A DNA stretch of 64,000 nt. It comes from Thermoanaerobaculia bacterium. Its GTDB lineage: Bacteria > Acidobacteriota > Thermoanaerobaculia > Multivoradales > J023. The translations under genes were made by a program, and so were the position numbers. The DNA lies in NCBI GenBank assembly GCA_028066595.1, contig JALCBJ010000012.1:20633-84632 (forward strand). The letters run 5' to 3'. Numbering within the stretch: the first letter of the stretch is position 1; the number at the start of each line of letters is the position of its first letter. Below are positions 17,682-29,035 of the stretch, one piece after another. A model generated the notes under the pieces. It ran no database searches. It saw only the letters and a list, made by a program, of their open reading frames with translations, and was not told the origin of the DNA.

Positions 17682-17757
17682 GGTGCCAGTGTAACCAGGG
17701 TGCACTCTGGCCGACATCGTGTATCCTGAACTTCGACGCACATTCCCTTCTACGAAA

Positions 17758-18315
17758 ATGACCGACGACGCCCAGTGGTACAGCACCGAAGCCGATGAAC
17801 ACGGCTTCCTGGACTTCGACAAGCTGGCCCGGAAAGCTCGCGCCCTGAGCGAGGACGACTTTGTCGCCGCCTACCCGCGCCCGGCCTTGCGCGTGGTCTA
17901 CCGCGGCGATGGTGTGGCCGACGAGCCCGCTTCGGATCGTTCGGGGGTGCAGCTCTTGACGGTGGCCGTGAAGAGTGTCGGTATTCTGCGCTACCTTTCC
18001 CGGGTTGCGTTCGTCGCGAAACGCCCCGGCGCACCCTTCGCTCACCTCGTCTCCATCGGGCGCTCCAACAACAACGACATCACCATGGCGGTGGAGTCGG
18101 TGTCGAAGGTCCACGGCTATCTGGTTTTGGAAGAAGGCCGTTGCAGATTCACCGACCACGGCTCGACCAACGGTTCCAAGTTGAACGGCGCGCCATTGGA
18201 GAAGAACGAAAAGTACACGCTCGGTGACGGCGACATCCTGCATCTCGGTCTAGAGACGGCGCTCGAGTTCCTGACTCCGATGAGCCTCTACCGAAAGCTG
18301 AGGGCCGGGAGCTAG
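17758..18315 (+). CDS. FHA-domain protein
   Basis: The 185-residue product (ATG 17758; a GTG at 17719 is the only longer alternative and neither has a good ribosome-binding site) contains a C-terminal forkhead-associated domain. Its ligand residues are visible: SIGRSNNNDI, SVSKVHGYLV, DHGSTNGSKLNG. FHA domains bind phosphothreonine peptides, so it is a plausible reader for a Ser/Thr kinase such as the one 7-9 kb to the left. About 90 N-terminal residues do not match a family I know. There is no signal peptide or membrane segment, so it is probably cytoplasmic. It precedes the endonuclease/exonuclease/phosphatase-fold gene on the same strand. Confidence 0.85.
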   Translation: MTDDAQWYSTEADEHGFLDFDKLARKARALSEDDFVAAYPRPALRVVYRGDGVADEPASDRSGVQLLTVAVKSVGILRYLSRVAFVAKRPGAPFAHLVSIGRSNNNDITMAVESVSKVHGYLVLEEGRCRFTDHGSTNGSKLNGAPLEKNEKYTLGDGDILHLGLETALEFLTPMSLYRKLRAGS

Positions 18316-18436
18316 CTCGGAGAAGAGCAATGCGGCCCAGGGCCGCGATGGCCAACCAGCGGAAACGGAACCGCTTGTACTTCAAAGGTCCGGTCGCAGG
18401 GTGGGAATTCGACCGACCGAGCCCAGGTTCTTTAGA

Positions 18437-19312
18437 ATGATGGATCTGGGGATGTTGAGAGGACGCCCACAGCCCGCCCGTAGAGTTCGTAGGTCAGACC
18501 TGGGTGCTGACCACCCATCGCTGTCGTCGAGCGCCCACGTGCCGCCCAAACGGGGGCAATCGTTACGATTGGTGTCGCTGAATCTGGCGCACGGCCGTCG
18601 CGTGTCCGCTCATCAGGCCTTCCTCAAGCGCGGCACGGCAGAGAAGAACGTCGGCCAGGTGGCGAAGCTGCTCCGGCAGCTGGCGCCCGACGTGGTGGCT
18701 CTCCAGGAAGCCGACGGACCCTCGGCTTGGAGCGGCAACTTCGACCACGTGGCCACGCTGGCAGACCGTGCGCGCCTGGGAGATCATTTCCGCGGCAATC
18801 ACAACCCGTTCGGTTCGGATCGCTATCCGTTGGCATCGGGTACGGCCCTGATGGCCGCGATGCCGTTGGAGGATCAGCTGTCGGAGCCCTTCGCCACGAA
18901 CTGGCGCGACACCAAGGGATTCGTGGTCGCTGCCTGCCAGGTACCTCAGTGGACCGATCGGACCATCGATGTCGTGTCGGTCCATCTCGATTTCCTGCGC
19001 CCGGGCATTCGTCGCCAGCAGATTTTGCGGTTGGTGCACGCGTTGATCCACCGCCGCCGTCCCCTGGTGGTCATGGGCGACCTCAATTGTTGTTGGCAGC
19101 GCGAAAGCACGACTCTGGAACTGTTCCGCGAGCACCTCGACCTCCATGCCTACTTGCCCTACGAGTCGGCGCCCACGTTCCCGTCGAGCAAGCCACGCCG
19201 CCGCCTCGACTGGGTTCTGGCCTCGAAGGACCTAGCGTTCGGTGACTACCACACGTTGCGCTCGCCCCTGTCGGATCATCTGGCTATCGTCGCCGACATC
19301 CACCCCGCCTAA
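18437..19312 (+). CDS. Endonuclease/exonuclease/phosphatase-fold family hydrolase
   Basis: The DNase I-like fold is shown by the motif series RLVSLNLAHG (Asn), VVALQEADG (Glu), VDVVSVHLDF, VVMGDLNCCW (Asp, Asn) and SDHLAIVADI (Asp-His dyad). This gives a Mg-dependent phosphoesterase that could act on DNA, phosphoinositides or other phosphodiesters. Several starts are possible: ATG 18437 (used), ATG 18440 or a GTG at 18401. The first conserved strand begins only some 40 residues in, and no signal peptide is present. The sequence RLDWVLASKDL is typical of the endonuclease/exonuclease/phosphatase family. The tRNA-Glu promoter begins right after its stop. Confidence 0.83.
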   Translation: MMDLGMLRGRPQPARRVRRSDLGADHPSLSSSAHVPPKRGQSLRLVSLNLAHGRRVSAHQAFLKRGTAEKNVGQVAKLLRQLAPDVVALQEADGPSAWSGNFDHVATLADRARLGDHFRGNHNPFGSDRYPLASGTALMAAMPLEDQLSEPFATNWRDTKGFVVAACQVPQWTDRTIDVVSVHLDFLRPGIRRQQILRLVHALIHRRRPLVVMGDLNCCWQRESTTLELFREHLDLHAYLPYESAPTFPSSKPRRRLDWVLASKDLAFGDYHTLRSPLSDHLAIVADIHPA

Positions 19313-19675: not shown

Positions 19676-21721
19676 TCAGTTGTTGGCGTTCTCTTCGGAT
19701 CTGATGGCGCCGCCTAGCTTTAGGACTCGGCTTCCGATGAAATAGTAGGGTTCGTTGTCGAGAGACACGTCGATCCCGATGCCGAGTTGGAACCAGTCCT
19801 TGGCGAAGCTGATGGTCAGGCCGAGTCCGATCTCCTGTTCACTGTCCTTGTTCAGGTCTAGGGCGACGGCGTGGAATCCGAAGCCAAAGCGTTCGAACCA
19901 CCGAGGGTTCCATTGCGCGGGTCGCTGGAGTTCGGAAGCGTCTCTCCACTTGCGATGGAGAAAAAGCCAGGAGGTGTGGGGAACGAAGGCCTGGGCTTCG
20001 TCGTCGGCTCCTTCCAGGGGATCGAGCGAGCTGAGATAGGCGATGCCGAGGGAGGGCTGGTTATACCAGCCGAACCGGAGGAGGCGGAAGGTCTGCGAGA
20101 CTTCGTCGACGATCCGCGGTTCGTTCTCACCATCGAGGCTGTAGAGCCAGGCGCGTAGGACGAGCAGGTCGTCTTCCCTCCGCGGGTTGATCCTCTGGAG
20201 TTCGAGCTGGGTGGATTTGGCGACAGAGAGCAGGCGGAGGGGAGACGTCTGGGGACGTCCCTCCTTCAGGAGAGACGAAAGCGCTTCGAGAGCGGGCGGG
20301 TGTCCAGGGAAGACTCGGAGCTTTGCGATCAGGGCGCGGGCTTCGTCGGGAAGTTCCTGGATCGCGGTGCCGAGGTCGCGTAGGGGTTGGAGTGCGGGCT
20401 CCCAGATCGGGAGGAGAGATTCGCCGAGCGCGTCGGGAAGTGAGCCGAGGATCTCTTCGAGATCAGTTCGGGTGTCGGCGAGCGACCCGGCCAGATCGGA
20501 CGTCGAGGGCAGGGAGGTGTTTTCGAGGTTCGACAGTGCCTCTAGGATGGACGCGACTCGAAGGAAGAGTTCCAGCCCATCGACTTTCTCCGCGTCCCGC
20601 ACCTGCTCGGCGATGCCCTCTAGGTTCTCGATCAGATCCAACAAAGACGGGCGGGCCAAGGCGACTCGGACCTCCAGCTCGCGGAGCGACTGGCGGGCCT
20701 GATTCCGAACGAGATCCGCCTGGCTCTCCAGAGCGCTTTCGGTCGAGTCCTGGAGTCCGTCCCAGTCCAGGGTGCGGAGTGACTTCACCTGGACTGTGAT
20801 CTCCTCGATCCGGTCTTCGATCGTAGTGATCTCGTCCGCGAGCTCACCCCGGCGGAAGGCTTCCTTCAAGACTTCGCCCACCGACCGACCCGATTGCAGG
20901 GCGGCGTTCCAGGTCTGGGCGATGGCGTCCAATTGCTGACGAGCTTCTTCCATCTTCGCGAGCTGATCTGGTGTGGGGACGATCCGGAGCTTGTCGATCG
21001 GCCGAGGGGCGGGCAGATCGAGGGTGCTGTAGTGGGCGAGACCCTGAGGGGTTCGCCCTCCCTTGGAGGAAAGGTGGTCGACCGCCATCGCCAGGGCGAA
21101 GCCCTCGCCCGAGATGTCCTCAAGTTCGCGGAGCTCTGCCGCGGTTCTCTCCAACTCCCTCGAAACGGCTTCTCCGAACGGTCCCCAGCTCTCACCGACC
21201 AACCAGCGGTCGGCGAGCTGGCGGTCGAGAGCGCCGGTATTGACGGCGGTCAGCAAATGCGCGGAGAGGCGCTGCATTGCCTCCTCGTGATCCGCAGAGA
21301 GGGCTTCGACGTCTTCTCCGCTGTTCTGGTTCTCCAGGGCCCTCGCGACTTTGGTGGTCGCATCGCTCGCGGCGGCGATTCCCTGGACGAGCTCTCTCAG
21401 GAGAGTGGCCCTCGCGTGGAGCAATCGGTGAGCCGGGCTCTGGGAGGTTCCGAGTACCGACTGGCCGCGGAGGTCGACTCGGATCCGAATCGAAGAGTTG
21501 ACGTCGACGTCCTGGGTTTCGACGCCGAGGAGGAGGGGCAGCTCGCCGGAGACCGGTGCCGCGATCGATCGGTTGTACTCGCTCAGAGTCAAGATCGAGT
21601 GGAGCGGGCTCGTCTCGTCGGTCGCTCTACCCGGCGCAGAATCGTCTGCCAACAGCGAGGCCGGGAAGACGCCGAGAGCGAAGGCCGCTCCGAGAGCAAA
21701 GGGTCTTGAGGGCAGCCTCAT
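19676..21721 (-). CDS. Exported coiled-coil protein of the protease operon, function unknown
   Basis: Start ATG 21721 overlaps the TGA of the M15 gene (TGATG) and has GGAGGAG just upstream; the longer frame to 21949 lies inside that gene. The signal peptide is MRLPSRPFALGAAFALGVFP with cleavage after ASLLA. The mature 655 residues have a beta-like first part, a long middle rich in Leu/Glu/Arg with heptad character (about residues 250-450, ITTIEDRIEEITVQVKSL) and a C-terminal part of alternating aromatic/aliphatic strands (FGFGFHAVALDLNKD, IGLGLTISFAKDWFQLGIG). That end could be an outer-membrane beta structure. I do not recognise the family. It is the last gene of the operon and its only product with an export signal. 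Confidence 0.6.
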   Translation of the reverse strand: MRLPSRPFALGAAFALGVFPASLLADDSAPGRATDETSPLHSILTLSEYNRSIAAPVSGELPLLLGVETQDVDVNSSIRIRVDLRGQSVLGTSQSPAHRLLHARATLLRELVQGIAAASDATTKVARALENQNSGEDVEALSADHEEAMQRLSAHLLTAVNTGALDRQLADRWLVGESWGPFGEAVSRELERTAAELRELEDISGEGFALAMAVDHLSSKGGRTPQGLAHYSTLDLPAPRPIDKLRIVPTPDQLAKMEEARQQLDAIAQTWNAALQSGRSVGEVLKEAFRRGELADEITTIEDRIEEITVQVKSLRTLDWDGLQDSTESALESQADLVRNQARQSLRELEVRVALARPSLLDLIENLEGIAEQVRDAEKVDGLELFLRVASILEALSNLENTSLPSTSDLAGSLADTRTDLEEILGSLPDALGESLLPIWEPALQPLRDLGTAIQELPDEARALIAKLRVFPGHPPALEALSSLLKEGRPQTSPLRLLSVAKSTQLELQRINPRREDDLLVLRAWLYSLDGENEPRIVDEVSQTFRLLRFGWYNQPSLGIAYLSSLDPLEGADDEAQAFVPHTSWLFLHRKWRDASELQRPAQWNPRWFERFGFGFHAVALDLNKDSEQEIGLGLTISFAKDWFQLGIGIDVSLDNEPYYFIGSRVLKLGGAIRSEENANN

Positions 21722-22629
21722 CACAGCTCCTCCGGTGGGAAGAACGCAGCGTGGATGTCGAGATTGTCGGCGAGCTCTTCCAGCAAGTAGGAATGGGTCC
21801 GCTGCCGGTCGAGGCCCGTTCCCCGAGAGAGTCGGACGACCGGGACGGGGCCGCCCTGCCAGATAAGGGCCCGAAGCTGTGCGTCGAGGTCCTGCGGAGC
21901 CGTGATGAGGTGGACTCTCGGCCTTCCCGCGTACATCGGAGAGGAGCAAAAGCCCCGAACCCGCTCTAGGGTCTGGTCGAAGGTCGCGGCATCCACGCCG
22001 GGCAGGCGGGTGAAGACAAGGAAGATGGTCCAGGGCGCCGCGAGCGCGCTCCTTAGCGCTGCCGATTCATCGAGCGGCAAGCCGGCCGCTACGATCGCTC
22101 CCGCGTCGTGGTCTCCCGCCGGCGGGCCGTAAGTCTCGTCGATGAGTTCTGAAAGCTCCAAGCCGCTGGTCCACTGGAAGTGGACGTACTCACGAAAGCG
22201 AGCCCACCGTCCCGCCCACTCCAGACCGATCCCCTCACCGATCTCACCGACGCGCCGCCAGAGCTCGCCATCGGCGCCCGTTGTCCTCCAGACGGGCTTG
22301 CCGCCCCGGAGTGGCACGCAATCGTACGCTCTTCCGTGCTGGTGGAGGGATTGACCCGGGCCCGCAAAGGTCCGCTTCGGCTTTGGTCCCGGACCCATCT
22401 CCCGTTGGACCGACCCCAGTGCGGGGTAGCCGAGGGCCTCGAGCTGGCGTGCCTTCCGAAGGATCTGCTCGATCGTTCGACCTCGCGCGTACATCTCGGC
22501 CTGCTCGCGTTCCGACCGGAGGGTGCAGTAGATCAGCAGGTCGATGCCGAGAATCCTGCATCGGTCCTGGTGCTCGAGCGCCATCTCGCGAAGGCGGTCT
22601 CGAAGAAGATCGAGACTTCGGGATGCCAT
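21721..22629 (-). CDS. M15-type peptidase domain protein with unknown C-terminal domain
   Basis: Residues about 20-165 match the M15 fold of D,D/L,D-peptidases and phage L-Ala-D-Glu endolysins: IDLLIYCTLRSEREQ, SLHQHGRAYDCVP (zinc His and Asp, about 96-105) and EYVHFQW (catalytic Glu/His region, about 149). These cleave peptidoglycan cross-links or stem peptides. The last 130 residues (from GDHDAGAIVAAGLP) are not part of that fold and I do not recognise them. There is no signal peptide, so export would need another route such as lysis or a specialised secretion machine. AAAGGAAA precedes the ATG, 13 bp after the stop of the upstream gene; the 3' end overlaps the next start. Confidence 0.75.
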   Translation of the reverse strand: MASRSLDLLRDRLREMALEHQDRCRILGIDLLIYCTLRSEREQAEMYARGRTIEQILRKARQLEALGYPALGSVQREMGPGPKPKRTFAGPGQSLHQHGRAYDCVPLRGGKPVWRTTGADGELWRRVGEIGEGIGLEWAGRWARFREYVHFQWTSGLELSELIDETYGPPAGDHDAGAIVAAGLPLDESAALRSALAAPWTIFLVFTRLPGVDAATFDQTLERVRGFCSSPMYAGRPRVHLITAPQDLDAQLRALIWQGGPVPVVRLSRGTGLDRQRTHSYLLEELADNLDIHAAFFPPEEL

Positions 22630-22642
22630 TCCGTTTCCTTTC

Positions 22643-24976
22643 TCAGCTCAAGGGCTGGATGGACAGGCTCACGGAGCCGGAGTTGTTCCAGTACATGCAG
22701 CTGAGGTCGTTCGCGAAGCAGTAGAGTCGACCCGTCGCGGGGGCGGCGACTTCCTGCCCCGCGGCGATCCGGAAGGCATGTCGGTAGCTCTTGCCGATAC
22801 AGCCGACCAGGGCGAAGAAGGGGACCTTCTCGTCTCCGATCTTCGGTACCCGGAGGCGGGGTTCCAGGGGGCGGAGGTAGGCGAGCTCGTATCCTTCTGG
22901 ACCCGACGGGACGAACCAGTCCTTCCAGTCGTCGTCGGGTCGGAGCTGGAACCGGTAGCGCCGTCCCTGCTGCAGAACGATGCGAGTGTCGTTCCATCGC
23001 CGCCTTGCCCGAACCTCGACCGTCCAGGCTAGGTGTCGATCGTCAACTTCCTCGCCCCGGGGTCGCTCCGAACCAGCAGGCGCGGGAGAGAGCATCACCG
23101 TCGGAACCGGTGTCACGGTCTCTCGCCAACGCGAGATGGATTGGACGACGGATTCCCGGGTCACACGGTCTCTCGAGAAGCCGCCGTGGCGAGCGGCCTG
23201 GGAGAACTGCGAGGAAGACTGCCAAAGTCGCAGCTGCGGTTTTGGGAGCCCCCAGCTCGCTGCTGCAGGGCGCAGGTCCTTCTCCAGGCCCAAGAGCGGC
23301 GCTCCGAGGTTGTCCTCGAACGCATTGGAGACCAGGTAGAGAAGCGATCGGTCGTAGCCGAGGATAGCCCTCGTGGAAGGGTCGGCTCGTTCCTGGGATT
23401 CGGTCAGATTGACCGTTGTGACCTTCCGAACCCGTCCATTACGCAGATGGGGGAGGACCCTCTCTTGGAAGAGATCGAGCCTCGCAGCTCCGGCGAGGAA
23501 GGTCGCCGTCTCGATGACGAATCCGCGGGAGGCCAGGAAGTGGATCAGGTGGCTGTGCACGATGGCCCCCGCCGAGTGGCCGATGAGGTGCAGGCGCAGC
23601 TGGTCACCTCGTCTCCCGGACTCCGCAAACTTGCGGATGAGTAGGCGGAGTCCACTCTCCGAATTCTCCGAGATCCTTCTCGCGTTTTGCTTCATCTCGT
23701 CCCAGAGGACCTTGCCGGGACGGCGCACCGTCTGCTCGATCGCCCGAAGCCGGATCTCGTCTAGAGTCTCCAGGAGCCCGGCTGCCGGCACCCGGTCGAC
23801 GCCAAGGAGATCTCGAACTCTGTTGGTGATCGTGGAGAGGATGTCAGTCTCCCACATCAGGAAGACCGGGAGTATCCGGGCATTGAAGAGTGCCGGGATC
23901 CAGAGTCGGGCAGCCGCTGCGGCAGCCTTCTCGCCGACCAGGCCGCCGTGGGCGTAGATGGCCACATCGATCGGGTCTCCGGTGGTTCCCCAGAGATCCT
24001 GCGCCCGCGGAAGGTGCTTGTGGATGAGGAGGTCGAGGTCGAGGTCGGTAGATCGGAACTGACCCGTCTGGCTCAACCGCCCGTTGTTCTCGACGTTGAC
24101 GATGAAATCGTCGATTTCCTGATTCGCCAGAAGAGTGTCGGAGGAGAGGGAAATCGAGGCGGAGCGAGCAGAGGTAGGTCGCAGAGTGCCCGCCGCGGCG
24201 ACCGAGCGGCGGTCTTCGGTCATGACCCCGAGCTGAGCGACCCAGCAGTCCATGCCGTTGTCGAGCCAGTCGCTGTAGGTGAGGATGGCGAGGCCCTTTG
24301 AACCCCAATCCTCTCCATAGGAGTTCTGGATGATGAACCCCTCCGCGGTGTATCCGATGATCGCGAAGGCGTGGCCCGCCAGGGCATCGCGGCGACGTTG
24401 GGGGATCACCCAAAGCTCATTTGGGACCTGACGCCGTTCGAGGCCTTCGCGCCACCCGTCGTGGTAGAAGATGCTGGCAGCGAGACAACCCACCCTGGCC
24501 AGGGCGACCTGCATGTCGACCACGCTCTTTTTCTCGACGCGGTAGTAGGCCCCCATCGGCCGCTTCGCGGCTTCGAACCACCAGTCGACCTCATCCGCTG
24601 CCGGGCGGGGCATCTTGAGGTCCGGCCAGAGCTCTCGGGCACAGGCGCCATGCTTGTACCAGCCTTTGAGCACACCACGGATACTCGAACCCCGATCGTT
24701 CTCGCCCGCGAACTCGTCGTAGCGCCGGGCCATGTTGTATAGCATGTAGGGGGAGACCGGTCGCTGGTCGTACTCCGGTGCACGCTGCTGCAACACGTGG
24801 ATCGCTGCGGCGAGCGCGAAACCGGTGCAGCCGAACGTATCCCCCTGGTGGAGGATCGCGATCTCGGTCGATGGCTCCAAGGACGGTGGGGGCGCCACGT
24901 CCGGCGGAGGCTGGTAGAGACGATCCCGGAGGTCGATTCGATCGGGGACGACTTTGGTCTTCAGGAAGTCGGTCAT
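22643..24976 (-). CDS. Papain-like (C1) peptidase - alpha/beta hydrolase - lectin-like fusion protein
   Basis: Three parts are visible in 777 residues. First, a C1-type cysteine peptidase: FGCTGFALAAA (nucleophile Cys, about residue 49), AGHAFAIIGY (His, about 202), QNSYGEDWG (Asn, about 219). Second, from about 320, an alpha/beta hydrolase with IDVAIYAHGGLVGEKA and the nucleophile elbow LIGHSAGAIVHSH (Ser, about 467). Third, from about 640, a beta-sandwich-like end (WNDTRIVLQQGRRYRF, ATGRLYCFANDL, WNNSGSVSLSI) that resembles the PA-IL/LecA galactophilic lectin family. No signal peptide is present. Its ATG overlaps the TGA of the subtilase gene (ATGA), so expression is coupled. Targets are unknown: protein plus ester or lipid cleavage with carbohydrate binding is the simplest reading. 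Confidence 0.75.
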   Translation of the reverse strand: MTDFLKTKVVPDRIDLRDRLYQPPPDVAPPPSLEPSTEIAILHQGDTFGCTGFALAAAIHVLQQRAPEYDQRPVSPYMLYNMARRYDEFAGENDRGSSIRGVLKGWYKHGACARELWPDLKMPRPAADEVDWWFEAAKRPMGAYYRVEKKSVVDMQVALARVGCLAASIFYHDGWREGLERRQVPNELWVIPQRRRDALAGHAFAIIGYTAEGFIIQNSYGEDWGSKGLAILTYSDWLDNGMDCWVAQLGVMTEDRRSVAAAGTLRPTSARSASISLSSDTLLANQEIDDFIVNVENNGRLSQTGQFRSTDLDLDLLIHKHLPRAQDLWGTTGDPIDVAIYAHGGLVGEKAAAAAARLWIPALFNARILPVFLMWETDILSTITNRVRDLLGVDRVPAAGLLETLDEIRLRAIEQTVRRPGKVLWDEMKQNARRISENSESGLRLLIRKFAESGRRGDQLRLHLIGHSAGAIVHSHLIHFLASRGFVIETATFLAGAARLDLFQERVLPHLRNGRVRKVTTVNLTESQERADPSTRAILGYDRSLLYLVSNAFEDNLGAPLLGLEKDLRPAAASWGLPKPQLRLWQSSSQFSQAARHGGFSRDRVTRESVVQSISRWRETVTPVPTVMLSPAPAGSERPRGEEVDDRHLAWTVEVRARRRWNDTRIVLQQGRRYRFQLRPDDDWKDWFVPSGPEGYELAYLRPLEPRLRVPKIGDEKVPFFALVGCIGKSYRHAFRIAAGQEVAAPATGRLYCFANDLSCMYWNNSGSVSLSIQPLS

Positions 24977-26922
24977 CGCGAAACCCCCTGGAGCAGGTGA
25001 TCGAGGGTCGGACTGAAGGCGGAGTCCCGCCTGGAGCGCCTCGGGCCGCTCAGGGACCCCGCCTCGACGGGTACTCCCTCGATGCGTCGCGCGAGGCTCT
25101 TCCGAAGTGGCTCATCACAGAGTAGTTGCATCTCGAGCTCGTCCCAGAAGTCCTCGGCGTCCTCGCCCAGGACTTCCCTTAATCGAGAGTCCACCTGCCT
25201 CTGCTCCAGCTCCAGCTCCTCGAAATAGGAGAGCAGGGGGCTGAGGCGCCCTTCGACGAATCCACCCGCCGGAACGATCGGAGCCGCTTCCAGTCCGGCA
25301 GCAACGGCCGAGACGTCCACCTGGAGGACTTTCTTCGCATCGACCAGCCCGGATCCGTACGCGCCTGATTCCCACGGGATCCCGCCGGGCCTTGAGAAAC
25401 CAGTGGTGGCGAGAATGCTCCGGAAGACGGCCGGCACTCGGTCGAGTCCCCCGACCAGCTGACCCAGTGCTTCTCGGCCGCCATGGTGGGCGATCCAGAG
25501 GGCCGCGACTCCTGCCACGTGTGCGACTGCGTAGGACGTTCCGCTACCGCGCTTAACCTTGCGGTACTCCGTGTTCCGGTCGCTTCCCTTGGACTTCGCG
25601 CGCCAGACGTCCTGGCCGGGAGCGGTGATCGAGACCGATTTGCCCCGTGAAGTCGCACTCCAACGTCGATTTCGGGCGTTGCTAGCTGCGACGCCCACCA
25701 CGGTCTTGCATCGGGCCGGGGCGACGACCCAGTACCGTATCTGGTTCCCGGCGGCGGCGCAGACGATGACCCCGCGCTCCTCGGCGAAGCGAAGGGCCTG
25801 GTCCAGGGTCCGATGAGCGCCCGGGCCCCCCATGCTGATCGAGATGACGTCGCATCCTTGGTCGACGGCAGCCCGGATCGCCAGCGCAAGGCGGCGGGTG
25901 TTGAAGAGCACCACGGTCGAAGAGACGCGAAACGGCACGAGTTTCGCGAGGGGCGCCACACCCTGGATCTGGTGCGTCTCTCCACTCATGATCACGCTCG
26001 CCGTGGACGTGCCGTGACCCTCGTTCGGGTTGAAACCGGCCTTGAGTAGGCTCTTCCACCACGGGTCCTTGTCGTCCCACGGATCGTGATCGTCCGCCCA
26101 GAAGTCGAAGCCGCTCTCGACCAGGAGTCGATCACTGTCGAGCTCCCGGTGATGCGTGTATCCGGTGTCGGGATGACCGATGGTCACGCCCTCGCCTCTA
26201 GAAGGACGACCAGCGAGGTCCGAGAGCTGCCAGGCCTCTCTGGCGCGGACCTTTCCCAGGGCCCAGTCCTTGGGTTCGCTCTCGGGGAGGGGGTGCGAGG
26301 ACCCGCCTCCGGCTGGCACGGCGGTCACCGAGCCCAGCGGGACCTCTAGGTCGGGCGCGATCCCCGTGGCGCTCTCCCAACCCGACGGAAGGTTGAACGA
26401 GGCCTCGGCCCAGCTGACGCCCGGGATCGCTCGAAGCCTGTGGGCCAGCTCGAACGCTTCCGGGAAGCTCAACTGTTGGAGATCCGGCGTCTTGAGAAAG
26501 ATCGGTCCCGGCGCTTCGAGGTCCACGCGCAATCTCGTGGAGAGCACCGCCTCGGACTCGGAGACGATCTCCTTGAGGGCCTGGTCTGCCGAGACGTCAA
26601 GGAGGAATCCCTCGAGGCCGTATCGGAGCAGCTCAAGTCCCAGACCTGCCATCAGGCGTTCCTCAGATCGCCGGGCCGAAAAGCCAGTGACCTCGAGAAG
26701 CAGGTCGAGCTGGGCTCGAGCCAAATGCACTCGATCGGCCTGGGAGACTGCACGCCCCCAGGCGTACCGAAGGAAGATCTCGGCCGCCACTCGAGCCGCT
26801 AGCTCGTTCTTCTCGTCGGCTGCGGGAGGGTCGGCTCTCGTGCCCAGTGATTCGAGGAGAACCTCCCGGACCTGCGCAAGGAATCGATCGGCGATCAGAA
26901 GACGTACTGCGAGATGACTCAT
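24973..26922 (-). CDS. Subtilisin-family (S8) serine protease, first gene of operon
   Basis: The S8 catalytic triad is intact: IGHPDTGYTHH (Asp, about residue 251), NEGHGTSTASVI (His, about 304) and GSGTSYAVAHVAG (Ser, about 463); the oxyanion Asn lies in CAAAGNQIR. The 230-residue N-terminal region is mostly helical and ends in a segment resembling an I9-like propeptide (IPGVSWAEASFNLP). The C-terminal 130 residues are charged and helical. There is no signal peptide, unlike most bacterial subtilases, so it is predicted cytoplasmic or released otherwise. GGGAGG a few bases before the ATG is a strong ribosome-binding site. It leads an operon with three more genes and could process them or their targets. 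Confidence 0.85.
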   Translation of the reverse strand: MSHLAVRLLIADRFLAQVREVLLESLGTRADPPAADEKNELAARVAAEIFLRYAWGRAVSQADRVHLARAQLDLLLEVTGFSARRSEERLMAGLGLELLRYGLEGFLLDVSADQALKEIVSESEAVLSTRLRVDLEAPGPIFLKTPDLQQLSFPEAFELAHRLRAIPGVSWAEASFNLPSGWESATGIAPDLEVPLGSVTAVPAGGGSSHPLPESEPKDWALGKVRAREAWQLSDLAGRPSRGEGVTIGHPDTGYTHHRELDSDRLLVESGFDFWADDHDPWDDKDPWWKSLLKAGFNPNEGHGTSTASVIMSGETHQIQGVAPLAKLVPFRVSSTVVLFNTRRLALAIRAAVDQGCDVISISMGGPGAHRTLDQALRFAEERGVIVCAAAGNQIRYWVVAPARCKTVVGVAASNARNRRWSATSRGKSVSITAPGQDVWRAKSKGSDRNTEYRKVKRGSGTSYAVAHVAGVAALWIAHHGGREALGQLVGGLDRVPAVFRSILATTGFSRPGGIPWESGAYGSGLVDAKKVLQVDVSAVAAGLEAAPIVPAGGFVEGRLSPLLSYFEELELEQRQVDSRLREVLGEDAEDFWDELEMQLLCDEPLRKSLARRIEGVPVEAGSLSGPRRSRRDSAFSPTLDHLLQGVSR

Positions 26923-28058: not shown

Positions 28059-28958
28059 CTAGATCAGACCGACCTGCGACATGCTGAGATTCCAGACCTT
28101 TTCGACAAGCTCGTCGTCGAGAGCTTCGGGGTTGGGTTGCTTGACGTAGTCCTCGTAGATGAACTCGCCGGAGACGCCCTCGTACTGCGGCGCGATGGAC
28201 ATCGTAACGATGCGATCCGCGCCTACCTCACGCGGGTGCCCGAAGATCGTCGTGAGAATCCCGCCGATGATCTTCCTCCATCCTTTGATATCCCGCCCAT
28301 AGGCCACCTCGGTCTTGATCCATCCGGGGTTGAGAGCGTTCACCGTGACGCCCGTGCCTTCGAGCTCCCGGGCCATCTTCCGGGTGCACATGTTCAGGGC
28401 GAGCTTGGCCTGGGCGTAGGACCTCAAGGTCGCCCAGTTGCGCTCGAGCGATAGGTCGTCGAGGTGTATGTGCCCGTACTTCTCCGTGGCCGAGGATAGG
28501 TGGACGATCCGAGAGGGCGCAGACTCCTTCAGCCGATCGAGGAGCAGGTGCGTGAGCAGGAACCCGCCCAGGTGGTTGACCGCCCAGGCGACCTCCATCC
28601 CGTCCTCGGTCATCCTTCGTTCCGCAAAATTGGCTCCGGCGCAGTTCACGAGGACATGGATCTCCGGGCAGCGCTGTAGCACCTCGTCGGCGCAACGCCG
28701 GACGCTGGCCTGGCTGGCCAGATCGCAATGCACGTACTGCGCACGACCGGGTTCCGTCGCCTGGTTGATCGCGTCCACGACGGCCTTGGACTTGCTCTCG
28801 CTGCGCCCCAACACGACGAGTCCCGCGCCCATCTTGGCGAGCTTCTCTACCGCGACCCGCCCCATGCCATCGGTGCCGCCGGTGAAGACCACGGTCTTTC
28901 CGGTCAGGTCCTGATTCTCGAGCGGTACATCCTGCAGTCGAATGATGTTCTTCTTCAT
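28059..28958 (-). CDS. Short-chain dehydrogenase/reductase
   Basis: The start at 28958 has GGAGG before the ATG (the frame extends to 29003 without such a site). The Rossmann motif is TGGTDGMGR (about residues 26-34), then NCAGAN, the catalytic Ser in VHLSSAT and the YAQAK Tyr/Lys pair (about 178). PGWIKTEV follows. This is a classical SDR similar to retinol dehydrogenase-like or WWOX-like NAD(P)-dependent oxidoreductases. The substrate is unknown. A palindrome over the -10 box of its promoter matches one over the tetR promoter, so the upstream TetR protein probably represses it. Confidence 0.88.
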   Translation of the reverse strand: MKKNIIRLQDVPLENQDLTGKTVVFTGGTDGMGRVAVEKLAKMGAGLVVLGRSESKSKAVVDAINQATEPGRAQYVHCDLASQASVRRCADEVLQRCPEIHVLVNCAGANFAERRMTEDGMEVAWAVNHLGGFLLTHLLLDRLKESAPSRIVHLSSATEKYGHIHLDDLSLERNWATLRSYAQAKLALNMCTRKMARELEGTGVTVNALNPGWIKTEVAYGRDIKGWRKIIGGILTTIFGHPREVGADRIVTMSIAPQYEGVSGEFIYEDYVKQPNPEALDDELVEKVWNLSMSQVGLI

Positions 28959-29035
28959 GACTGCCTCCTTTTCGCCTGAAAGTCTTGATATCGCGCTGCC
29001 CATGCCTCAACGACCTGGGGTGTCGGCAATCTAAT

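Follow-up and report, generated by a model that had tools for sequence, protein, structure and literature searches.

A tightly spaced run of four genes

The stretch of DNA considered here (‘the window’) comprises 64 kb of a 107.9-kb contig (JALCBJ010000012.1) from the draft genome of a Thermoanaerobaculia bacterium (7.5 Mb in 228 contigs). Following its minus strand from position 26922 to 19676, we see four genes in succession: a subtilase of peptidase family S8 (26922-24973; 649 amino acids), a gene encoding a C1 (papain-fold) domain joined to an alpha/beta hydrolase (ABH) domain and a lectin-like end (24976-22643; 777 amino acids), which we term the ‘hub’, an M15 peptidase (22629-21721; 302 amino acids) and an exported orphan protein, P4 (21721-19676; 681 amino acids if translation begins with the ATG at 21721, although the mechanical open reading frame extends back to 21949).

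The genes are closely coupled: an ATGA at 24976-24973 gives a 4-bp overlap between S8 and hub, a gap of 13 bp lies between the hub and M15 genes (22643 and 22629), and a TGATG at 21723-21719 gives a 1-bp overlap between M15 and P4; the layout thus confirms the tightly joined, single-direction run described in a first-pass annotation of this DNA. The motif GGAGG precedes the starts of both S8 and P4, and AAAGGAAA that of M15. Each of the four genes has a G+C content of 63–66%, against 64% for the window, and no promoter or terminator stood out when the run was compared with shuffled sequences. By inspection, P4 carries a signal peptide and the S8, hub and M15 proteins do not, as previously noted; the catalytic residues, also claimed to be present, can be read as motifs in the S8, C1, ABH and M15 sequences.

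Domains of the encoded proteins

The hub opens with the C1 domain (residues 10-250; 24227..24949, minus strand), for which the Pfam match of 14.2 bits falls under the cut-off and which xylellain (PDB: 3ois), the C1A peptidase of Xylella fastidiosa, matches at 1e-12. The residues Q44, C50, H202 and N218 are in place and the structure model predicts a papain fold, so that this domain has the predicted fold and the Cys, His and Asn expected of a xylellain-type C1A peptidase; it differs from xylellain itself by the ABH and lectin-like domains that trail it. The ABH domain (residues 285-620; 23117..24124, minus strand), delimited by alignment and by Foldseek matches to lipases/esterases and DDHD domains, has Peptidase_S51 as its sole, sub-threshold, Pfam match. 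It combines a GxSxG nucleophile elbow (GHSAG, S468) with an acid (D532), a histidine (H597) and a lipase-like fold in the model, and is therefore predicted to be a hydrolase; the esterase/lipase-like domain proposed earlier is in this way borne out by motif and by modelled fold. Mean predicted local distance difference test (pLDDT) for the hub model is 70.8, with 175 of the 777 residues below 50.

At the C-terminus of the hub (residues 650-777; 22646..23029, minus strand) we place a domain resembling the PllA/LecA lectin fold, on the basis of a Foldseek match to 6ygq (PllA-like lectin; probability 1.00, E 1.5e-3, 18% identity), a row that carries no residue range and is assigned to this section since the other domains of the protein are accounted for. 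Sequence comparison gave no match for this segment at E 1; in modelled fold, at least, the ‘lectin-like end’ of the earlier description finds support. The same domain ends a Tle1-like phospholipase protein, identified by Pfam scan (L110), the one protein scanned among three genomes of the order in which the lectin-like end was found again. When 22 hub proteins are aligned, that of the window included, the active-site residues of both C1 and ABH are invariant or nearly so, and the lectin-like end is seen only in the window protein and one other (P0002).

The S8 protein scores 116 bits against Peptidase_S8 (PF00082), above the cut-off, with a catalytic domain spanning residues 243-478 and a triad motif of D252/H303/S463; its best NCBIfam match, mycosin, reaches 133 bits, far under the cut-off of 279 for that model. 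The N-terminal ~240 residues belong to no known family, and residues 1-240, compared with 5.8 billion proteins, returned only self-matches at the sensitivity of the tool used. The M15 protein matches Peptidase_M15_4 (PF13539) at 43.9 bits (cut-off 25) and contains the zinc-ligand motifs HQHGRAYD (96-103) and REYVHF (146-151). Its nearest solved structures are the phage endolysins Ply500 (2vo9; 1.2e-6) and LysB4 (6akv; 3e-4), with which it shares the M15 zinc peptidase core; it is unlike them in that residues ~160-302 have no assigned family and that no holin is recognised in the run. Together, the PF13539 match and the endolysin relatives favour the cell-wall peptidase suggested earlier, probably an endolysin-type enzyme similar to L-Ala-D-Glu endopeptidases. 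For P4, searches of Pfam and NCBIfam gave no believable family match; a weak match to TrwJ (E 0.025) was considered and is not believed, and the structure model (pLDDT 41) is not usable, appearing helical with C-terminal strands at that low confidence only.

Distribution and company of the hub

Relatives of the hub number in the thousands and span several phyla: of 7,993 scored candidates, 3,876 pass 1e-3, and coverage among the best 120 is 77-100%. Some part of the hub was matched in 12 of 98 relatives’ genomes (own included), several of these weakly, and none of the family’s other six genomes has it; across the phylum, ABH was found at 1e-10 in at least 16 of 396 genomes, own included, a lower bound as five candidates were scored per genome. 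M15 was matched in five of the 98 genomes (own included) and, at 1e-6, in three of 72 genomes of the order; P4 was matched in two of the 98, namely its own and one frame with stops. Given these genome counts, we regard the hub as patchy and accessory.

A tblastn comparison of S8, M15 and P4 with 103 loci, 80 genome and one viral hub loci among them, matched only loci of the own genome. The four-gene set therefore appears private to this genome, as far as the searches reach, and a conserved four-gene system is rejected, the full set having been found in no other genome searched. The expectation that the same four genes would recur in the same order in unrelated species, proposed earlier as a test, fails in the tblastn comparison, in the P4 and S8 N-terminus searches and in the genomes of the family. 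On the evidence of sequence comparison, the run is a private operon set upon a widespread, repeatedly recombined hydrolase hub. A phage origin was also considered and is not supported: a search of 50,697 phage records gave a single distant match, and of 21 pattern matches in viral contigs just one proved to be a relative.

We gene-called 104 ABH loci (81 from the broad search for relatives, 22 from further genomes, and the window), with L049 and L143 representing one and the same contig. Partners were named by Pfam scans of 30 chosen proteins, seven of which had no family at E 0.01; the names obtained were Amidase_2, Muramidase, GH19, GH108, PG_binding, CHAP, caspase, CHAT, matrixin/astacin, trypsin, S8, sheath and tube, with a GTA holin, a GDSL lipase and some CHAP matches falling under the Pfam cut-off. 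These partners then served as phmmer seeds, places 1-2 from the hub being counted as near and places 3-8 as far. Of the 104 loci, 33 have a peptidase or peptidoglycan hydrolase either within two genes of the hub or fused to it; these fall in 20 of the 42 clusters formed at 70% identity. Peptidases make up 17 of 380 near against 2 of 803 far genes (Fisher p 3e-7) and peptidoglycan hydrolases 9 of 380 against 2 of 803 (Fisher p 0.001); fused to ABH, we find a peptidoglycan hydrolase in 13 loci and a peptidase in five.

With the window removed, these become 16 of 376 near genes for peptidases (p 7e-7) and 8 of 376 for peptidoglycan hydrolases (p 0.002), the reduced tests here and below using the far total of 803, which is 792 without the window. 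Leaving out the four HExxH genes recognised by eye as well, 12 of 376 near genes are peptidases (p 5e-5); without any of the seed genes the number is 9 of 376 (p 0.0009), or 6 of 376 when the HExxH genes are also dropped (p 0.015). The peptidase company of the hub is thus supported. Nor do the genes sort into separate known pathways, the outcome that the first-pass annotation had named as telling against a common system; the hub keeps the same kinds of partner in a third of loci.

The individual loci present these partners in a variety of arrangements. Two kinds of fusion stand out: Amidase_2-ABH-caspase (L108, L109, L149, L152) and Muramidase-C1-ABH (seven Lysobacterales loci together with L150 and L151), Pfam having been run on L108, L149 and L150 only, with the amidase of L149 under the cut-off. 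Caspase is fused to ABH in the first group and in L107, and a caspase gene neighbours the hub in L043, L062, L156 and L160 (the last by phmmer, with no Pfam match). Other neighbouring peptidases or peptidase-like proteins are of the CHAT (L071, L073, L077, L087), metzincin (L104, L105, L148), S8 (L106) and HExxH (L108, L109, L149, L152) types. As for wall enzymes, within two genes of the hub we see GH19 (L029, L045), Amidase_2 (L073, L087), CHAP/PG_binding (L070 and, on the other strand, L042) and a muramidase, again on the other strand (L082); GH108 occurs near the hub with a sub-threshold holin match in L025.

Several of these loci share further features. The Amidase_2-ABH-caspase proteins are 886-985 amino acids long and each is followed by a related HExxH protein of ~600 amino acids. 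Pfam assigned no family to either of the two HExxH proteins scanned, and a PDB sequence search with one such protein gave no match. In L150 and in Pseudoxanthomonas (L089, L090, L094, L097, L098), Muramidase-C1-ABH has as its neighbour a protein whose length reaches ~1070 amino acids; the neighbours in L150 and L089, from different phyla, share 27% identity over 400 residues, and that of L150 has no Pfam match. Two genomes of the phylum (L156, L160) hold runs of an ABH gene, a caspase-like gene and a third, unassigned gene, and in Achromobacter (L071, L073, L077, L087) C1-ABH is followed by a large protein, PAS/GAF-like by eye, and the CHAT protein.

Outside the 104-locus count, 21 plasmid records matched the hub and ten were read, of which four lack such a partner and two are unannotated. 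On a Rhizobium leguminosarum plasmid a trypsin-like gene is divergent from C1-ABH, with a caspase gene farther away, and on a Sinorhizobium fredii plasmid a PG_binding/CHAP-like gene is likewise divergent from C1-ABH; the C1-ABH genes divergent from those partners carry the ABH serine motif. A Sinorhizobium meliloti plasmid (L170) has CHAP, C1 and caspase genes consecutively, and a Palleronia plasmid (L166) has an S8 gene two places upstream of a C1 protein whose ABH-like part is without the serine motif. As the S. meliloti C1 protein also has no HSxG, the two perhaps represent a catalytically dead branch.

A contractile sheath gene directly adjoins the hub in L024 and L045, one of which also has a gp19 tube gene. 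This raises the alternative that the products of the run are antibacterial effectors that leave the cell through a contractile injection system or a type VI secretion system, the signal-less hydrolases being the cargo and the lectin-like tail binding either cargo or target; the C-terminal domain held in common with the Tle1-like phospholipase protein points in the same direction, as does a contractile injection-type locus in the own genome (L123, L124; contig C183). That locus sits on another contig, however, a sheath gene is nearby in just two of the 104 loci, and Pfam finds no recognisable VgrG, PAAR, Hcp or delivery domain in the run or in three flanking genes, such that we consider delivery of this kind unlikely. 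The L123/L124 locus itself, not linked to the window, has a sheath by Pfam and tube-, spike- and baseplate-like genes by eye.

A candidate cell-dismantling set

Starting from the observed gene order, junctions and domain identities, and from the company of the hub in a third of loci, we tentatively read the four genes as an operon-like run encoding an effector set that dismantles a cell from within; a reading we hold at somewhat short of an even chance. Because the hub lies beside, or is fused to, peptidases or wall enzymes in about one third of loci, the set would likely break down a cell, and to that extent the theme of cell breakdown put forward earlier stands, be it as antagonism or as self-lysis or defence. 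The target might be the own cell (suicide or defence) or a neighbour with a breached envelope, or the set might serve mere digestion.

What we infer of activities, substrates, joint action, trigger and the self or non-self nature of the target would run as follows. The lipase-like domain of the hub would damage the inner membrane, and via this damage the M15 peptidase, itself without a signal peptide, would reach and cut peptidoglycan; the C1 and S8 peptidases would degrade proteins, and the exported P4 might serve as a brake or a helper, either within the periplasm or at the outer membrane. A more specific version, which we think improbable, sees a lysis cassette that is bacterial, not phage-borne, and does without a holin: ABH opening the inner membrane from within, the signal-less M15 then cutting the wall, P4 acting in the manner of a spanin at the outer membrane and the two proteases destroying the proteome, the whole being one build of a widespread kit in which the peptidases (papain, caspase, subtilase, CHAT, metzincin) that accompany an ABH can replace one another, as can the peptidoglycan hydrolases (M15, amidase, muramidase, GH19, GH108, CHAP).

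The broad mix of hydrolases, in a genome with 11 subtilase matches above the Pfam cut-off, would also suit a scavenging or predatory digestive set for dead or lysed bacteria, its members freed by lysis or in vesicles. We consider this distinctly unlikely: a signal peptide is missing from three of the four products, which sets these apart from the usual secreted digestive enzymes, and the amidase-caspase fusion in relatives fits regulated killing better.

A number of observations weigh against a dedicated cell-dismantling set. Such a partner, fused or within two genes, is missing from 71 of the 104 loci (three of these have one at place three), gene order around the hub is not conserved, and related loci inflate the counts, as the 42 clusters at 70% identity indicate. 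The counts can register only families represented among the seeds, and the seeds themselves, drawn from proteins initially noticed close to the hub, are included in the near totals. Without all seed genes, peptidoglycan hydrolases fall to 4 of 376 near against 2 of 803 far genes (p 0.09, not significant); adjacency alone being not significant, it is the two kinds of fusion that carry the argument for peptidoglycan hydrolases. M15 lies beside no other hub among the 104 loci, and S8-type genes are near just two other hubs (L106 and L166). Within the run, which was scanned together with three flanking genes, Pfam recognises no NTPase, sensor, immunity or secretion gene; P4, compared with 5.8 billion proteins, has no relatives but itself at the sensitivity of that tool; and the S. 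meliloti C1 gene, although a profile detects an ABH-like part in it (44 bits), is without the HSxG serine motif, as is that of Palleronia, which weakens the S. meliloti example.

The first and the seed-free counts among these, together with the finding of the set in no other genome searched, would also be expected if unrelated hydrolases had been grouped by chance around a stand-alone hub gene. Set against such an origin are the overlapping junctions of this run, the occurrence of fusions in two different builds and the peptidase excess that persists without seeds; we therefore treat chance grouping as an unlikely explanation, if one to be taken seriously.

Among described systems, the cell-dismantling set we favour resembles the NTP-dependent ABH-caspase conflict systems (VMAP, GAP1-N1), in which ABH stands beside a cysteine or serine peptidase; VMAP-system caspases are reported always to have an adjoining ABH gene (Kaur et al. 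2020, PMC7159879), and the hub relatives noted above that adjoin or fuse caspases recall these pairs. The likeness is one of gene pairing, as distinct from a homology comparison with the published ABH. The run differs from those systems in having C1 and S8 peptidases, no C14 caspase and an added M15, and no MoxR, vWA, VMAP or GTPase domain is found by Pfam in the run or the three flanking genes (P4 and the S8 N-terminus having no family). Since NTPase core and caspase are both missing from the window, we do not class the run with those systems. PADLOC reports no defence system, matching one subtilase model to S8 and nothing to the other three genes.

A second parallel is offered by the four Amidase_2-metacaspases, one of them also with a GDSL lipase, reported by Asplund-Samuelsson et al. 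(2012, PMC3501461): like these, the run combines protease, lipase and peptidoglycan hydrolase; unlike them, it does so in separate genes, with C1/S8 in place of caspase, M15 of amidase and ABH of GDSL lipase. By analogy, the run may work like the ABH-caspase and amidase-caspase systems. Should this hold true, the ABH-caspase immunity pairs and the scattered amidase-caspase fusions would be parts of one modular cell-dismantling kit, in which papain-like peptidases would be a common alternative to caspases, and an apparently undescribed one; we found no description of a papain-ABH hub or module in the literature searched, as far as the accessible parts of it extend. The C1-ABH gene would provide a handle on such a kit in genetically tractable bacteria such as Sinorhizobium and Rhizobium.

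Outside the run, an SDR gene (28059-29003, minus strand) lies 1.1 kb upstream, and the intervening gap, when searched, matches only itself, in the own genome. Downstream, an EEP nuclease gene (18401-19312, plus strand) is convergent with the run and is kept throughout the family, in the own genome and in each of the six others. Recent insertion of the run was considered and set aside, no empty site being definable: in five of the six other family genomes, the surroundings of the EEP gene share no other called gene with positions 8-40 kb of the window. Together with the EEP nuclease gene, an FHA-domain gene (17719-18315, plus strand) converges on the operon.

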